This document shows positions 1 through 52,995 of a stretch of DNA of 57,311 nt, one piece after another. A program made the translations under genes and the position numbers. Below the pieces are notes generated by a model that saw nothing but the letters and a program-made list of their open reading frames with translations, was not told the DNA's origin and ran no database searches. Position 1 is the stretch's first letter. Each line of letters starts with the position of its first letter. The DNA lies in contig NZ_JAVIFX010000040.1 of the NCBI RefSeq assembly GCF_031157255.1, positions 1 to 57,311 of the forward strand. The letters are read 5' to 3'. The DNA comes from Bradyrhizobium sp. LHD-71. Its GTDB lineage: Bacteria > Pseudomonadota > Alphaproteobacteria > Rhizobiales > Xanthobacteraceae.

Positions 1-43
1 TGCGAATTTCTGATCCATAAACGACACTAGAATCATAAACTTG

Positions 44-119
44 CTAGTGTCCTGATCGAATCCGAAGTTCGCTCTGAGCTCGCTGCAAAGTATAGCGAAC
101 TTCGGATTCGGGACACTAG
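44..119 (+). repeat. Palindromic element copy 1 (bulged hairpin family)
   Basis: Outer arms CTAGTGTCC (44-52) and GGACACTAG (111-119) pair perfectly, as do inner arms of 17 nt (57-73 and 94-110) that contain GAAGTTCG. The left side carries four extra bases, TGAT (53-56), between outer and inner arm. The 20-nt loop (74-93) contains GAGCTCGCTGC. A further GACACTAG lies at 23-30, inverted relative to 44-51. The right outer arm contains the TAG stop of the minus-strand acyltransferase gene. Three more copies with the same plan lie at 29689, 45066 and 45156. Bases 1-43 hold nothing else recognisable. Confidence 0.85.
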
Positions 120-1072
120 GCCGCGTGCCGTGTGGCATCGGCACCGAAATGCTCGATGTAGCGGGCGCTGATTGCCGACACAGGCATGATCATCAGCACG
201 TCGGTCGTGCCGAACTGATAATCGATCACCGCGCCGTCGCCGACGAACGCGCCGAGCCGCAGGTAGCCCTTGATTAGCGGCGGCAATTCGCGCAGCGCCG
301 TGCGCGGGTTGATCGCCTCTTTCGGCAGGCGGTTCATATCGATGTGACGATGCGGCAGCGCCGTCGTACGCCAGTCCTCGGGCGCGCTGGCGAAGTGGTG
401 CAGGAACGAAAGCGGCAGCCGTAAGCGATCCGGATCGGTGCCTTCGAGGCTCGCGCAGCCGATCATCACATCGAACCTGTTTTGCCGAACATAACTCCAA
501 ACGCCATGCCACAGGAGCTCGACGGTCCGCTTGTTGCGATATTTCGGCAGGACGCAGGAGCGGCCGAGCTCGAGAAAGCGCAACGCGGAGTGCCGCTCCA
601 TCAGGCTGGCGATATCGAATTCGTTCTCGGTGTAAAAGCCGCCATGGCGCGCTGCGACCTCCTGAGACAGCAGCCGGTAGGTGCCGACGACGGGAGGCTT
701 GCGCCGCAGCCGCGCCTTCATCGGGTGTGCAGCAGCATGGTCGATCACCAACACATGGTCGCAGATCCGGTCGAACGCATCCTTGTCGCGTCGCGCCAGC
801 AGTGTCGCTGCGTCGGCAATGGCTGAACCATCGCGATAGAATATCTTGTAGCGCAATTTTTGCGCGCGCCGGATGTCTTTGCGCGTTGCGGCCAGCCGGA
901 CCTCCAGCGGGCCGATGCGGCCAAGCACGGATGCAGGCCGCGGCTGCGGCAGAAGGATGCTGCTTGCGGCCTGCCACGTCGGCTTGAGCCAGGCTGCTGG
1001 TTCGATCACGGCGAATGGCTTCAGCCGTTCCATCAAGCGGAGCGGTGCGCCGACCGGATCGAGATTTTGCAT
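116..1072 (-). CDS. olsB: GNAT-family N-acyltransferase, OlsB-like (ornithine lipid synthesis)
   Basis: Predicted cytoplasmic or membrane-associated acyltransferase moving a 3-hydroxyacyl group from acyl-ACP to the alpha-amino group of ornithine, the first step to phosphorus-free ornithine lipids. The protein (318 aa) has the hemolysin-like acyltransferase domain: an AQKLRYKIFY segment, then GTYRLL, then FLELGRSCVLPKYRN, then an IGCASLEGTDP segment. These match the Acetyltransf_5/OlsB family. The frame is open to 1147, but the ATG at 1072 is preceded by AGGGGA, while the upstream ATG has no visible ribosome site, so 1072 is chosen. OlsA is not next door, as is usual in some rhizobia. The stop codon sits inside palindromic element 1. 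Substrate is inferred from family; related GNATs of unknown role exist. Confidence 0.75.
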   Translation of the reverse strand: MQNLDPVGAPLRLMERLKPFAVIEPAAWLKPTWQAASSILLPQPRPASVLGRIGPLEVRLAATRKDIRRAQKLRYKIFYRDGSAIADAATLLARRDKDAFDRICDHVLVIDHAAAHPMKARLRRKPPVVGTYRLLSQEVAARHGGFYTENEFDIASLMERHSALRFLELGRSCVLPKYRNKRTVELLWHGVWSYVRQNRFDVMIGCASLEGTDPDRLRLPLSFLHHFASAPEDWRTTALPHRHIDMNRLPKEAINPRTALRELPPLIKGYLRLGAFVGDGAVIDYQFGTTDVLMIMPVSAISARYIEHFGADATRHAA

Positions 1073-5450: not shown

Positions 5451-5655
5451 GATGGCATCCTCCTTGTTTGAGAATGCCCAGGCGAGCGGCGGTCCAAGGC
5501 CGCGCTTCCCGGTGGTGGTCCACCTTTATCGCCAGTTACGCAGCTACTGAACTTCGACACATTGTCAGGTTGTTGGCAACAGAAATAGGTCGAGGACGAG
5601 AAAGGCCCTGGCCTTCAGTGCAGCACGCAAAATCCCTCAGCGCGCGTCACAATTT

Positions 5656-29688: not shown

Positions 29689-29758
29689 GCGGTGTCCCTG
29701 ACGTTCCGATCAGCCTTACCGCAATCTCAGCCATCGGAACGTCAGAACGGGACATTAG
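29689..29758 (-). repeat. Palindromic element copy 2 (bulged hairpin family)
   Basis: Read on the minus strand: outer arm CTAATGTCCC, four unpaired bases GTTC, inner arm TGACGTTCCGAT, a 22-nt loop containing GAGATTGCGGT, then the matching arms ATCGGAACGTCA and GGGACACCGC. On the plus strand the inner arms are 29699-29710 and 29733-29744 and the bulge is GAAC at 29745-29748. The outer arm supplies the TAA stop of the solute-binding-protein gene. It fills the last third of the rpiB-ABC gap. Confidence 0.82.
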
Positions 29759-30540
29759 CCGCGCATGTTCTCGGGCAGCTCGGTGCCGTGGAACTTCTTG
29801 TAGATTACGTTGAGCTTCCCGTTCTTGAGGTTCTGCTCGACCCAGGCATTGAGCTTCTCGAGCAGCTTCGGCTCACCTTTCTTCAGGCCGATGGCGAGGT
29901 CGAAATTGGTGATCGAGACCTTTGGCTCGAACGGACGCGAGGGCGCCTTGACGCCGATCTGGGAAACGATCGTCGCCGAGGTCGCCACGCAGTCAGCCTG
30001 GCCGGAGACTGCGGCCGTCACCATCGTTGCATCGTCCTCGTAGCGGGCGAGCTTGAGGTCGCGGTCCTTCATGTTGGTCAGCGTCGTGTCCTGGGTGGTG
30101 CCGCGCGAGACCGCGATGGTCTTGCCCTTCAGATCGTCCCAGCTCTTCGCCTCGACCGATTTCAGGCAGCCGACGACGGACTGCAGAGCGGCATAGGGCT
30201 TGGAGAAGTCGATGACCTTTGCGCGCTCGGGGGTGACGGACAGCGTCGAAATGATGATATCGGCCTTGTTCGTTTGCACATTGGGAATTCGTGTCGCGCC
30301 CGTGGTCTGAACGAATTCGAGCTGCAAGCCCCAGTCCTTGGCGAGCAGTTCGGCAGTCTCGACATCCGAGCCCGTCGGCTTCATGGCGCTGTCGATCATT
30401 CCCGAGGGCGGAATTGCGAGGTCTGTGGCAACGCGGATCTTGCCGGTCTTGGTGATGTCGTCGAGCAGGTCCGCTTGGGCGGCGTGGACGGTGCAAGCCA
30501 GCGCAACTGACACTGTGGCGATTGTGAGAGTTCGTTTCAT
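29755..30540 (-). CDS. ABC transporter solute-binding protein, polar amino acid type
   Basis: Periplasmic receptor of 261 residues with signal peptide MKRTLTIATVSVALACTVHAAQA. It belongs to SBP family 3 (glutamine/lysine/cystine type): GKIRVATDLAIPPSGM, LEFVQTTGATRIPNVQTNKADIIISTLSVTPERAKVIDFSKPY, GKTIAVSRGTTQDT and GEPKLLEKLNAWVEQNLKNG. The TxER-like segment TPERAKVIDFSKPY is the classical motif. It is the last gene of the GntR-dehydrogenase-permease-ATPase operon. Ligand unknown. Confidence 0.93.
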   Translation of the reverse strand: MKRTLTIATVSVALACTVHAAQADLLDDITKTGKIRVATDLAIPPSGMIDSAMKPTGSDVETAELLAKDWGLQLEFVQTTGATRIPNVQTNKADIIISTLSVTPERAKVIDFSKPYAALQSVVGCLKSVEAKSWDDLKGKTIAVSRGTTQDTTLTNMKDRDLKLARYEDDATMVTAAVSGQADCVATSATIVSQIGVKAPSRPFEPKVSITNFDLAIGLKKGEPKLLEKLNAWVEQNLKNGKLNVIYKKFHGTELPENMRG

Positions 30541-44619: not shown

Positions 44620-44639
44620 GGACAGGACAGGTCAGGTCA
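44620..44639 (+). repeat. Short tandem pentamers (GGACA x2, GGTCA x2)
   Basis: Four abutting 5-nt units, GGACA GGACA GGTCA GGTCA. The last one contains the stop codon of the minus-strand DoxX gene. Too short to be a satellite; slipped-strand duplication of the gene end is likely. Confidence 0.5.
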
Positions 44640-45050
44640 GGCGCCCCCTCGCAGGGTTTGGCGCGAGAGGATCGACACCAGCATCAGCCCGCCGATGAGC
44701 CCGATGTGTTCGACAACGAAGAACAGTTCGGTTTGCGCCTGTTCGCCGGTTACGGTCCAGAATGCGTGCGCAATGGGAATCGTGAGCGCCGTAAAGGCAG
44801 CAAGGGCGCCGGCGCCGAGCCACGTGTAGCGATTGAGGATCACGAGCAGTGAGCCGCCGAGCTGACAGATGATCGTCGCAATGTTGTAGGCCGTCGGCGG
44901 GTGCAGGCCAAAATGCGCCATCTCCGCCACGCCACCCTCGAAATCGATCGATTTTGCCAGGCCGCTCGCCCAGAACGGAAATGTCAGGATGATCCGCGCG
45001 AGCAGGGCGAATCCTTTCGAATCAAGCAGGCGCCCGATGATGGTCGGCAT
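44637..45050 (-). CDS. DoxX-family membrane protein
   Basis: A 137-residue protein with four predicted membrane segments. The DoxX signatures are LLARIILTFPFWASGLAKSIDFEGGVAEM and AYNIATIICQLGGSLLVIL, followed by LGAGALAAFTALTIPIAHAFW. DoxX-type proteins act in respiratory or oxidative-stress membrane complexes; role here unknown. It lies between infC and rpmI, breaking the usual order. Two palindromic elements are just upstream. Confidence 0.88.
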   Translation of the reverse strand: MPTIIGRLLDSKGFALLARIILTFPFWASGLAKSIDFEGGVAEMAHFGLHPPTAYNIATIICQLGGSLLVILNRYTWLGAGALAAFTALTIPIAHAFWTVTGEQAQTELFFVVEHIGLIGGLMLVSILSRQTLRGGA

Positions 45051-45065: not shown

Positions 45066-45142
45066 TTAGTGCCCGGTTTTCGAAGTTCGTGATACATCGC
45101 GGCACCCTCCGACACGAACTTCGAGAGCTAAGAGGGCACCAG
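45066..45142 (-). repeat. Palindromic element copy 3 (bulged hairpin family)
   Basis: Outer arms TTAGTGCCC (45066-45074) and GGGCACCAG (45134-45142); inner arms CGAAGTTCGTG (45081-45091) and CACGAACTTCG (45113-45123). The joints differ by four bases (6 nt left, 10 nt right). The loop, read on the minus strand, contains GAGGGTGCCGC. This orientation places the longer joint on the 5' side, as in the other copies. It starts 15 nt beyond the DoxX start codon. Confidence 0.8.
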
Positions 45143-45155
45143 GAAAGATGCGATT

Positions 45156-45234
45156 CTAGTGCCGCTTTTCGATTTGAAATTCCTGGCACGAGCTTGCCGC
45201 AGGTGGTGCAGGAATTTCAAATCGGCGGCACTAG
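45156..45234 (+). repeat. Palindromic element copy 4 (bulged hairpin family)
   Basis: Outer arms CTAGTGCCGC (45156-45165) and GCGGCACTAG (45225-45234); inner arms CGATTTGAAATTCCTG (45170-45185) and its exact complement (45209-45224). Four unpaired bases TTTT (45166-45169) lie on the left only. The 23-nt loop contains GAGCTTGCCGC. This is the most perfect copy and sits only 13 nt from copy 3, in opposite orientation. Confidence 0.87.
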
Positions 45235-45324: not shown

Positions 45325-45864
45325 TTACTTCGGCGCCAGCACCATCACGACCTGACGACCTTCGAAGCGTGCGTCCTGTTCGACCTTTGCGAGCGAGGCG
45401 ACGTCGGCCTTGACGCGATCGAGCAGGCGGGTGCCGATCTCCTGGTGCGCCATTTCGCGTCCGCGATAGCGCAGGGTGATCTTCACCTTGTCGCCCTCTT
45501 CGAAGAAACGCTGCATGGCCTTCATCTTCACGTCATAGTCGTGATCGTCGATCATCGGACGGAGCTTGATCTCCTTGATCTCGACGATCTTCTGGCGCTT
45601 GCGCGCCTCGGCGGCTTTCTTCTGCGCGGAATATTTGAACTTCCCGTAATCGAGAAATTTACAAACCGGCGGATTGGTGTTCGGGGAAATTTCGACGAGA
45701 TCAAAACCGGCGTCAGCGGCCATCCTGATGGCGTCCTGGGTCTTCACGACTCCAAGGTTCGCTCCGGTTTGATCGATCAATTGAATTTCGAGGTTGCGGA
45801 TTTCCTCGTTGACGCGGGGTCCGTCTTTCTGGACGGGGGCTGGCGCTCTGGAAGGACGACGAAT
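45325..45864 (-). CDS. infC: Translation initiation factor IF-3 with ATT start
   Basis: 179 residues. N-domain with [22 protein letters not shown], linker [19 protein letters not shown]-domain with [40 protein letters not shown]. It blocks subunit joining and checks the initiator tRNA. No ATG, GTG or TTG is at the family N-terminus. An ATT codon at 45864 begins [11 protein letters not shown] and has CGGAG about 9 nt upstream, matching the rare AUU start by which IF-3 limits its own synthesis. The frame is open to 45933. Confidence 0.95.
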
Positions 45865-52910: not shown

Positions 52911-52995
52911 GCCCAGGTGGCGGAATTGGTAGACGCGCTGGTTTCAGGTACCAGTGGTGCAAGCCGTGAAGGTTCGAGTCCTTTCCTGGGCACCA
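52911..52995 (+). tRNA. tRNA-Leu (anticodon CAG)
   Basis: An 85-nt tRNA gene with encoded CCA. Acceptor stem GCCCAGG pairs with CCTGGGC, then A and CCA at the end. The anticodon arm is CTGGT-TTCAGGT-ACCAG, giving anticodon CAG, which reads CUG. A long class II variable arm follows, then the T-arm with GGTTCGAGTCC. No integrase or attachment repeat is seen beside it. Confidence 0.97.

Follow-up and report, generated by a model that had tools for sequence, protein, structure and literature searches.

Small IS630-type repeats are already known in bacteria. Elements of the IS630/Tc1-mariner group insert at TA and duplicate it, as shown for ISY100 (PMC2170065), and IS630 itself is cited there as preferring CTAG. 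The RUP element of pneumococcus, described together with IS630-Spn1, is 107 bp long and occurs in 108 copies (PMC2229807). The Correia or NEMIS elements of Neisseria have TA ends, give rise to stem-loop transcripts and contain an internal IHF site in their 155-bp form (PMC2229807, PMC2649163). A different kind of repeat is represented by REP dimers, BIMEs and REPINs, which are intergenic pairs of palindromes of 20–40 bp, some with conserved spacers, carrying a GTAG or CGTC tag and linked, for the GTAG types, to Y1 transposases (PMC3733652).

The family that we describe here comes from Bradyrhizobium sp. LHD-71 (genome G000, a 7.48-Mb draft). The window, by which we mean the whole stretch of DNA that was analysed, is its contig C40, 57,311 nucleotides long. 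In the same order, RIME1 and RIME2 of rhizobia and Bru-RS of Brucella are intergenic repeats of about 100 bp with large palindromes, and RIME1/RIME2 may overlap with the family in G000, a likeness judged from their description. Like RUP, the G000 family is a small intergenic non-coding repeat with IS630-like terminal repeats and probably a TA target, but the account of RUP on which we draw (PMC2229807) says nothing of hairpins folded back in pairs, of a displacement by 4 nt or of any motif in the loop. Correia and NEMIS elements are likewise MITEs with TA ends, a similarity by description rather than by comparison of the ends. The G000 family has palindrome pairs and an intergenic location in common with REP dimers, BIMEs and REPINs, but neither their tags, nor their palindrome size, nor their link to Y1. 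No description of it was found in the open-access literature that we searched, including the available text of PMC3733652, PMC5082802 and PMC10969869. Because RUP and Correia are precedents and no such description was found, we regard the IS630-type kind as known and this version as unusual, the unusual features being foldback ends, a 4-nt displacement and an oriented loop motif.

An earlier sequence-only reading of the window had described a four-member family of bulged palindromes, and four palindromes are indeed present, at 44–119 (copy 1), 29689–29758 (copy 2), 45066–45142 (copy 3) and 45156–45234 (copy 4). How they are joined had been overlooked. Copies 3 and 4 are the halves of a single 169-bp unit (45066–45234), made up of hairpin A on the minus strand with its outer end to the left, a 13-nt spacer (45143–45155) and hairpin B on the plus strand with its outer end to the right. 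This unit lies between a doxX-like gene (44637–45050, minus strand) and infC (45325–45780, minus strand), and has a 94% identical counterpart at G000:C22:47359–47527. Copy 1, a plus-strand hairpin A of subfamily A1, was also not recognized as half a unit. Its 13-nt spacer (31–43, minus strand) reads AATCATAAACTTG on the plus strand and CAAGTTTATGATT in the A-to-B orientation, and beyond it lies a truncated hairpin B (1–30, minus strand) that is severed by the contig start. The truncated arm gives a weak covariance-model match (15.6 bits, E 0.16), and its sequence agrees with the B1 arm seen complete elsewhere. Copy 2 (minus strand), identified by its fold and by the covariance model (45 bits), is a decayed single hairpin whose partner was not seen.

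Copies 1 and 2 are both placed at stop codons of predicted genes. The outer CTAG foot of copy 1 contains the TAG stop (116–118, minus strand) of a predicted GNAT-domain gene (116–1072, minus strand; gene prediction and Pfam), and the CTAA foot on the longer-joint side of copy 2 holds the TAA stop (29755–29757) of a predicted gene at 29755–30540 (minus strand). As plus-strand RNA, each of the four copies folds better than 200 of 200 shuffles, with z of −7.7, −4.1, −4.8 and −8.7 for copies 1–4; on the minus strand the values are −8.1, −4.8, −2.7 and −8.3, and copy 3 is equalled by 4 of 200 shuffles. None of the five adjoining genes in the window is a transposase by Pfam, in agreement with the sequence-only reading, which had seen no such gene. 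The window also contains a ZMP/ZTP riboswitch at 5469–5549 (minus strand, 62.4 bits) and a tRNA at 52911–52992 (plus strand), both above the Rfam gathering score.

The number of members given for the family was an undercount. A strict pattern for the whole hairpin matched G000 79 times in the forward and 80 times in the reverse direction, and the reversed control gave 0 matches. A covariance model (R1) was built on 12 chosen copies, a search that the sequence-only reading had proposed. Among 150 candidates scored, it finds at least 149 hairpins in G000 (copy 2 is not among these), including many further copies with the 4-nt asymmetry and the loop motif. Rfam has no family at the copies at gathering score; around copies 3 and 4, with matches up to E 5, it gives one family only, which overlaps none of the hairpins.

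Nearly all hairpins are halves of a unit of about 168 bp in which hairpin A, a 13-nt spacer and hairpin B are arranged divergently. A partner is present for 140 of 151 oriented hairpins and absent by the script's rule for 9, with 2 at contig ends; among the nine, several have a visibly decayed partner and one is not an element. By script we collected 82 distinct units, 65 from G000 and 17 from other sources, with the unit at 45066–45234 excluded by the score rule. Unit length is 162–178 bp, with palindromes of about 75–80 bp each and about 160 bp between the two CTAG feet. The outer foot is CTAG at 67 of 82 A ends and 58 of 82 B ends, although the unit-finding scripts demand hairpins and CTAG-like feet, so that conservation of both is partly built in. 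The spacer is 13 nt long in 74 of the 82 units, is exactly CAAGTTTATGATT in 22, and is similar in most of the remainder. Within the pairs, the side that is longer by 4 nt points toward the spacer.

The unit is short, non-coding and multi-copy, as is an IS630-type MITE. Arrays repeating every 164 bp were also found, in which adjacent units have one CTAG in common, and units of different subfamilies abut in the same way. All three whole-unit junctions between different subfamilies (L010 1665, L057 15949 and L095 2665) join B end to B end, a number too small to judge. At least 22 contig starts or ends in G000 lie within 150 bp of a copy, and the element is a frequent cause of breaks in this assembly.

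To describe its distribution, the element was sought in two samples of genomes. In the first sample, 14 of the 25 genomes from the family to which the window belongs carry it, counting G000, as do 0 of 16 from other families; in the second, it is present in 48 of 347 genomes (16 families of the order). Hairpin counts per genome are lower bounds, as no more than 116 candidates per genome were scored in the first sample and no more than 13 in the second. The named matches come from Hyphomicrobium, a Hyphomicrobiaceae MAG, a Xanthobacteraceae MAG and two other MAGs, and the gap is 13 nt in 6 of 6 pairs with two full-length matches at the named loci. BLAST of plasmid records returned one Aminobacter unit, and BLAST of phage records gave no match. 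The Aminobacter unit, on plasmid pSR3 (L151 4930–5100), lies between ehuC and a substrate-binding protein gene and is followed immediately by sequence starting CTAGAGCGG.

The sequence-only reading had reported a joint exactly 4 nt longer on one side of each hairpin. Our script measured joints of 4/0, 5/9 and 5/1 for copies 1, 3 and 4, and in copy 2, which the joint script did not pick up, a 4-nt one-sided bulge is seen in the fold. Over the 164 hairpins of the 82 units, the difference is 4 nt in 120, 3 nt in 25, 0 in 9 and another value in 10. A second claim, that the loop motif has the same orientation in every copy, stood for only part of the motif. G(A/G)(A/G)-N2-YGC-N-GY is found the proposed way round in 120 of 164 hairpins and the opposite way in none, whereas YGC-N-GY alone occurs 136 times in each direction; the orientation therefore rests on the GAG part. 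Of the 82 hairpins of each kind, 60 A and 60 B carry the relaxed motif, and 52 A and 9 B the strict GAG form.

Complementarity is retained as the arms diverge. In 12 chosen copies, changes on both sides affect 12 of 24 pairs (shuffle mean 6.4) and 34 cells, values reached by 0 of 500 shuffles in either case, and sliding the partners abolishes the covariation. Covariation by further pair types in these 12 copies was not above shuffles (225 of 500). This had been read as selection on structure rather than recent copying, yet the main subfamily has been amplified recently, with 54 A1 copies lying within 10 substitutions. Arm changes are mostly uncompensated, with 21 single and 2 double changes in the 54 A1 copies and 21 and 1 in 31 B1 copies. 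Changes per site in the arms compared with loop and joints are 0.009 versus 0.061 for A1 and 0.014 versus 0.028 for B1. At the feet of the 164 hairpins, changes form matching pairs in 15, affect the outside only in 21 and the inside only in 9, and are of another kind in 3. The covariation and decay data point to either a need for structure in spreading lineages or hairpin-templated correction, and fit both alike. The probable reason why complementarity is kept is that folding is required of the lineages that spread, or that hairpins serve as templates for their own repair, with decay of the individual copy once it has landed.

We also compared the A and B halves of units. Core columns 18–20 are concordant between the halves (0.81 versus 0.66 under shuffled pairing; 22 of 20000 shuffles), as are columns 17–25 (38 of 20000), with the reservation that representative sets, such as the 21 units tested, are of common ancestry, so that shuffles overstate the significance. 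Columns 5–10 and 11–16 showed no such concordance in these units (5326 and 13783 of 20000 shuffles). Judged from the sequences, the concordance of the core would be in line with one binding protein per unit.

We searched 23 chosen genomes for the PF13358 transposase domain and obtained matches in 9. Six of these belong to the 14 genomes in the set that bear the element and three to the remaining 9; thus, presence of the domain does not track the element. A PF13358 transposase was not found in G000, though its copies look recent, nor in G011, G169, G196, G254, G095, G113 or G065. An IS630-type MITE usually has a driver transposase in its own genome but does not require one. G017, which has at least 109 hairpin matches, carries an intact IS630-family IS (L260:1306–2518) encoding a 372-aa transposase (PF13358 E 1.8e-21), with CTAG on both sides and the ends CTAGTGTCCTGAACCAGAAGTTCGC and CTAGTGTCCCGAGTCACAAGTTCGC. 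Relatives of this transposase are present in 696 plasmid records (E up to 1e-30), nine of them at 90–95% identity, all nine from Bradyrhizobium. Paired ends were recovered by script in 8 of 10 IS630 copies, namely L260 and seven of nine named relatives (not L292 or L293). Five copies have ends of the GTGTCC type and three of the GTCACC type, and 16 of 16 ends read CTA·G, of which the script required TA and neither C nor G. The IS630-family IS on plasmids (Bradyrhizobium, Sinorhizobium, Rhizobium, Sphingobium, Rhodovastum and Acidovorax) have a CTAG target, as the MITE probably does, and their 25-bp ends of the GTGTCC/GTCACC type carry the same core in the same register. They encode a transposase, whereas the MITE does not; the finding that IS ends do not fold comes from the G017 copy.

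When the MITE outer ends are aligned in register with the 25-bp IS630 ends, A1 agrees at 22 of 25 positions (copy 1, outer end at 119) and B1 at 21. Units of genus g114 agree at 23 of 25 at the A end (GTCACC type) and 20 of 25 at the B end. At each of its ends, the unit at 45066–45234, from a diverged subfamily, agrees at 17 of 25 positions. The ends of copy 2 agree at 13 and 11 of 25, which is background: of the window's 42 25-mers anchored at CTAG, none located outside element arms exceeds 13 of 25. The inside arm of copy 1, read in the same register, agrees at 16 of 25 and is out of register by 4 nt. The G017 IS ends do not fold (z −0.36 and 0.11). Thus, it appears that only the miniature element has foldback hairpins, and the parent accounts for neither the hairpins nor the loop motif nor the spacer. 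Nine MITE units sampled from 400 kb of G017 differ from the G017 IS in end subtype, and for this reason we consider that IS a relative of the driver and not a proven parent. Examination of 8 of 13 other PF13358 loci left L260 as the only one with ends of this type, the left end of L257 lying outside the tested range.

A second repeat, whose first bases are CTAGAGC, is often found directly against the B end, with one CTAG common to both (flanks of L080, L089, L092 and L094; L257 around 181). The junction of this kind at L257 has a PF13358 gene after it, and at L258 (G014), positions 972–2023, a PF13358 gene lies between ends CTAGAGCA... and CTAGAGCA... (15/20). The CTAGAGC repeat may be another IS630-type family with the same target.

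Insertion sites were analysed in genus g114 (G169, G196, G218 and G337), which has many units; 21 were listed and 11 were queried as joined flanks. For 10 of the 11, empty sites were found in g114 relatives, related species differing in whether the unit occupies the corresponding site. The eleventh, L171, adjoins another repeat: its right flank (CTAGGTCGTGGACTCATAATTG...) is a separate repeat of at least 170 bp that begins at the shared CTAG and has more than 20 matches in G169. An exact single CTAG is the empty site of L181 and L176 (two of two relatives each) and of L175 (one relative; a poorer second match has TTAG). L190 is CTAT in three of three relatives and CTAG..CTAT when filled. Taken unaltered, this agrees with a duplicated TA and an element whose first base is G and whose last is C; a 4-bp duplication needs a further change. 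L170 (empty TTAG, TTAG and TTAA; filled CTAG..CTAG) requires one change under TA duplication and two under 4-bp duplication. Three insertions have empty sites one base off NTAN: L177 (TTGG in two of two relatives; filled TTAG..CTAG), which fits TA duplication if the donor site was TTAG, L179 (CGAG in one relative) and L167 (CTGG in one of three relatives, CCTG in the other two). L187 (TTGA, TTGA and CTGA) and L193 (AAG, GAAG and GAAG; feet CCAG..CTGG) fit no simple model. NTAN therefore occurs in some relative's empty site for 5 of 10 insertions, and the other five have different tetranucleotides only. TA duplication at NTAN explains the empty sites best, though not all of them. No target consensus was found beyond the feet, and in the same-genus genome G001 the matching region is too diverged to show an empty site.

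With genes predicted by a home-made script, none of the 65 G000 units lies inside a gene; 36 are between tandem, 14 between convergent and 14 between divergent genes, and 1 is at an edge. A neighbour's TAG stop falls inside the outer CTAG foot of 17 of the 65 units, nine of these feet being A ends and eight B ends, and three genes read on into the element. At L094, the best solved relative of a D-lactate-dehydrogenase-like gene stops three residues before the TAG of that gene, and from this alignment the stop at the element foot looks natural. The units that begin at stop codons, the strong RNA folds and the conserved, oriented loop motif all speak for a structured RNA or 3'-end element that serves the host (as terminator, mRNA stabiliser or RNase III site) and is under selection at each locus. 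We nevertheless consider such a role unlikely. CTAG sites outside element feet at the same loci match the stop placement (25 at stops, 80 intergenic and 48 coding), and the gene contexts of the units resemble those of the gaps around them (278 tandem, 86 convergent and 105 divergent). Moreover, recent copies mutate mostly without compensation, and presence varies between close species. The placement is therefore consistent with insertion at CTAG and later loss of gene-breaking insertions. The element is mostly a passenger in intergenic DNA and often leaves the stop of a neighbouring gene intact. Among 114 flanking genes (110 of 208 listed plus 4 from the window), no transposase family is found in the 25 commonest of 159 Pfam families. 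An all-versus-all comparison of ORFs near copies gave clusters of 19, 8, 8, 6, 6 and 5 loci, and we rejected a neighbourhood gene common to the copies; the members listed for the largest cluster run across the element itself.

The layout of the hairpins had reminded the sequence-only reading of those recognized by Y1/REP transposases. A REPIN- or BIME-like element moved by a Y1 enzyme (RAYT, IS200/IS605) recognizing a bulged hairpin in single-stranded DNA would account for two inverted palindromes, a conserved spacer, an asymmetric bulge, high copy number and complementary arms, and for the matching-pair foot changes in 15 of 164 hairpins. A Y1 match is also found in 6 of 14 element-bearing family genomes and in 1 of 11 without the element. 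However, 0 of 16 Y1_Tnp loci have a hairpin within 1.5 kb on each side (one 12.6-bit match, E 0.72), and G001, G011 and G020, with at least 43, 58 and 33 hairpin matches, have no Y1 match. The sole Y1 match in G000 has an in-frame stop, the foot is CTAG and not GTAG, the palindromes are about 75–80 and not 20–40 bp long, and the main-subfamily ends match IS630 ends. The Y1/REP reading is thus very unlikely, and Y1/RAYT is rejected as the driver. The Y1 remnant of G000 sits among a different repeat: at L035 (G000:C19:150776–151111) a Y1_Tnp-like gene with an in-frame stop lies amid stretches translating to HERSDMR, surroundings that are probably a separate REP family. We give the least credence of all to the idea that the MITE derives from an IS5-family element and duplicates the 4 bp of CTAG. 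CTAG does stand on both sides of most units, and IS5-family elements likewise use CTAG; one MITE assigned to that family, MITEPsy1, makes duplications of CTAG or YTAA (PMC3189936). Against this, L190 as it stands, and L177 given a TTAG donor, fit TA, and the terminal repeats match IS630 elements in a comparison that covered IS630 ends. The right flank of L196 has an ORF starting beside the CTAA foot of the unit, which we take to resemble an IS5-family transposase.

The spacer was compared with the IHF core consensus, WATCAANNNNTTR, which has nine fixed positions. The consensus spacer agrees at eight of these, and the remaining position is conserved as a different base. Among 19 representative spacers, 4 reach eight positions and 8 reach seven, most fitting at seven or fewer; 0.5% of shuffled spacers reach eight or more. 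RIB of E. coli is an IHF-site element. For Correia elements, IHF binding was demonstrated by gel shift, whereas the G000 family shows a resemblance in sequence only. The spacer may serve as an IHF-bound hinge, which we offer as a lead only.

From these results we conclude that the palindromes are very probably halves of a non-autonomous MITE of the IS630/Tc1-mariner type and not REP/Y1 elements. For this MITE, a transposase supplied in trans would bind the core (GAAGTTC and variants, 17–25 nt in from the foot) and cut beside TA, and the unit would be inserted at NTAN, preferably CTAG, with duplication of TA. In each hairpin, a transposon end would be folded against its own duplicate, in which the core is displaced by 4 nt; TA and core would lie at their natural distance in the outer copy and 4 nt too far apart in the inner one. 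Thrown out of phase in this way, the inside ends would be inert and the unit would move as a whole, with the IHF-like spacer perhaps acting as a hinge. It is possible, though doubtful, that these features form a locked double foldback, in which the ends are duplicated head-on, the inside copy is held exactly 4 nt out of phase and so escapes cutting, the spacer is an IHF-like hinge and the loop is a second recognition site (for protein or RNA) needed for spread.

If such a locked double foldback is true, the architecture of the MITE would itself be functional, and the element would be more than an IS with its interior deleted. Whether hairpin structure aids a DDE transposase in mobilising a MITE can be asked directly through the conserved loop and the inner end that is displaced by 4 nt. 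For the Rhizobiales, the MITE reading names a likely source for widespread palindromic repeats and links them to a testable enzyme family.
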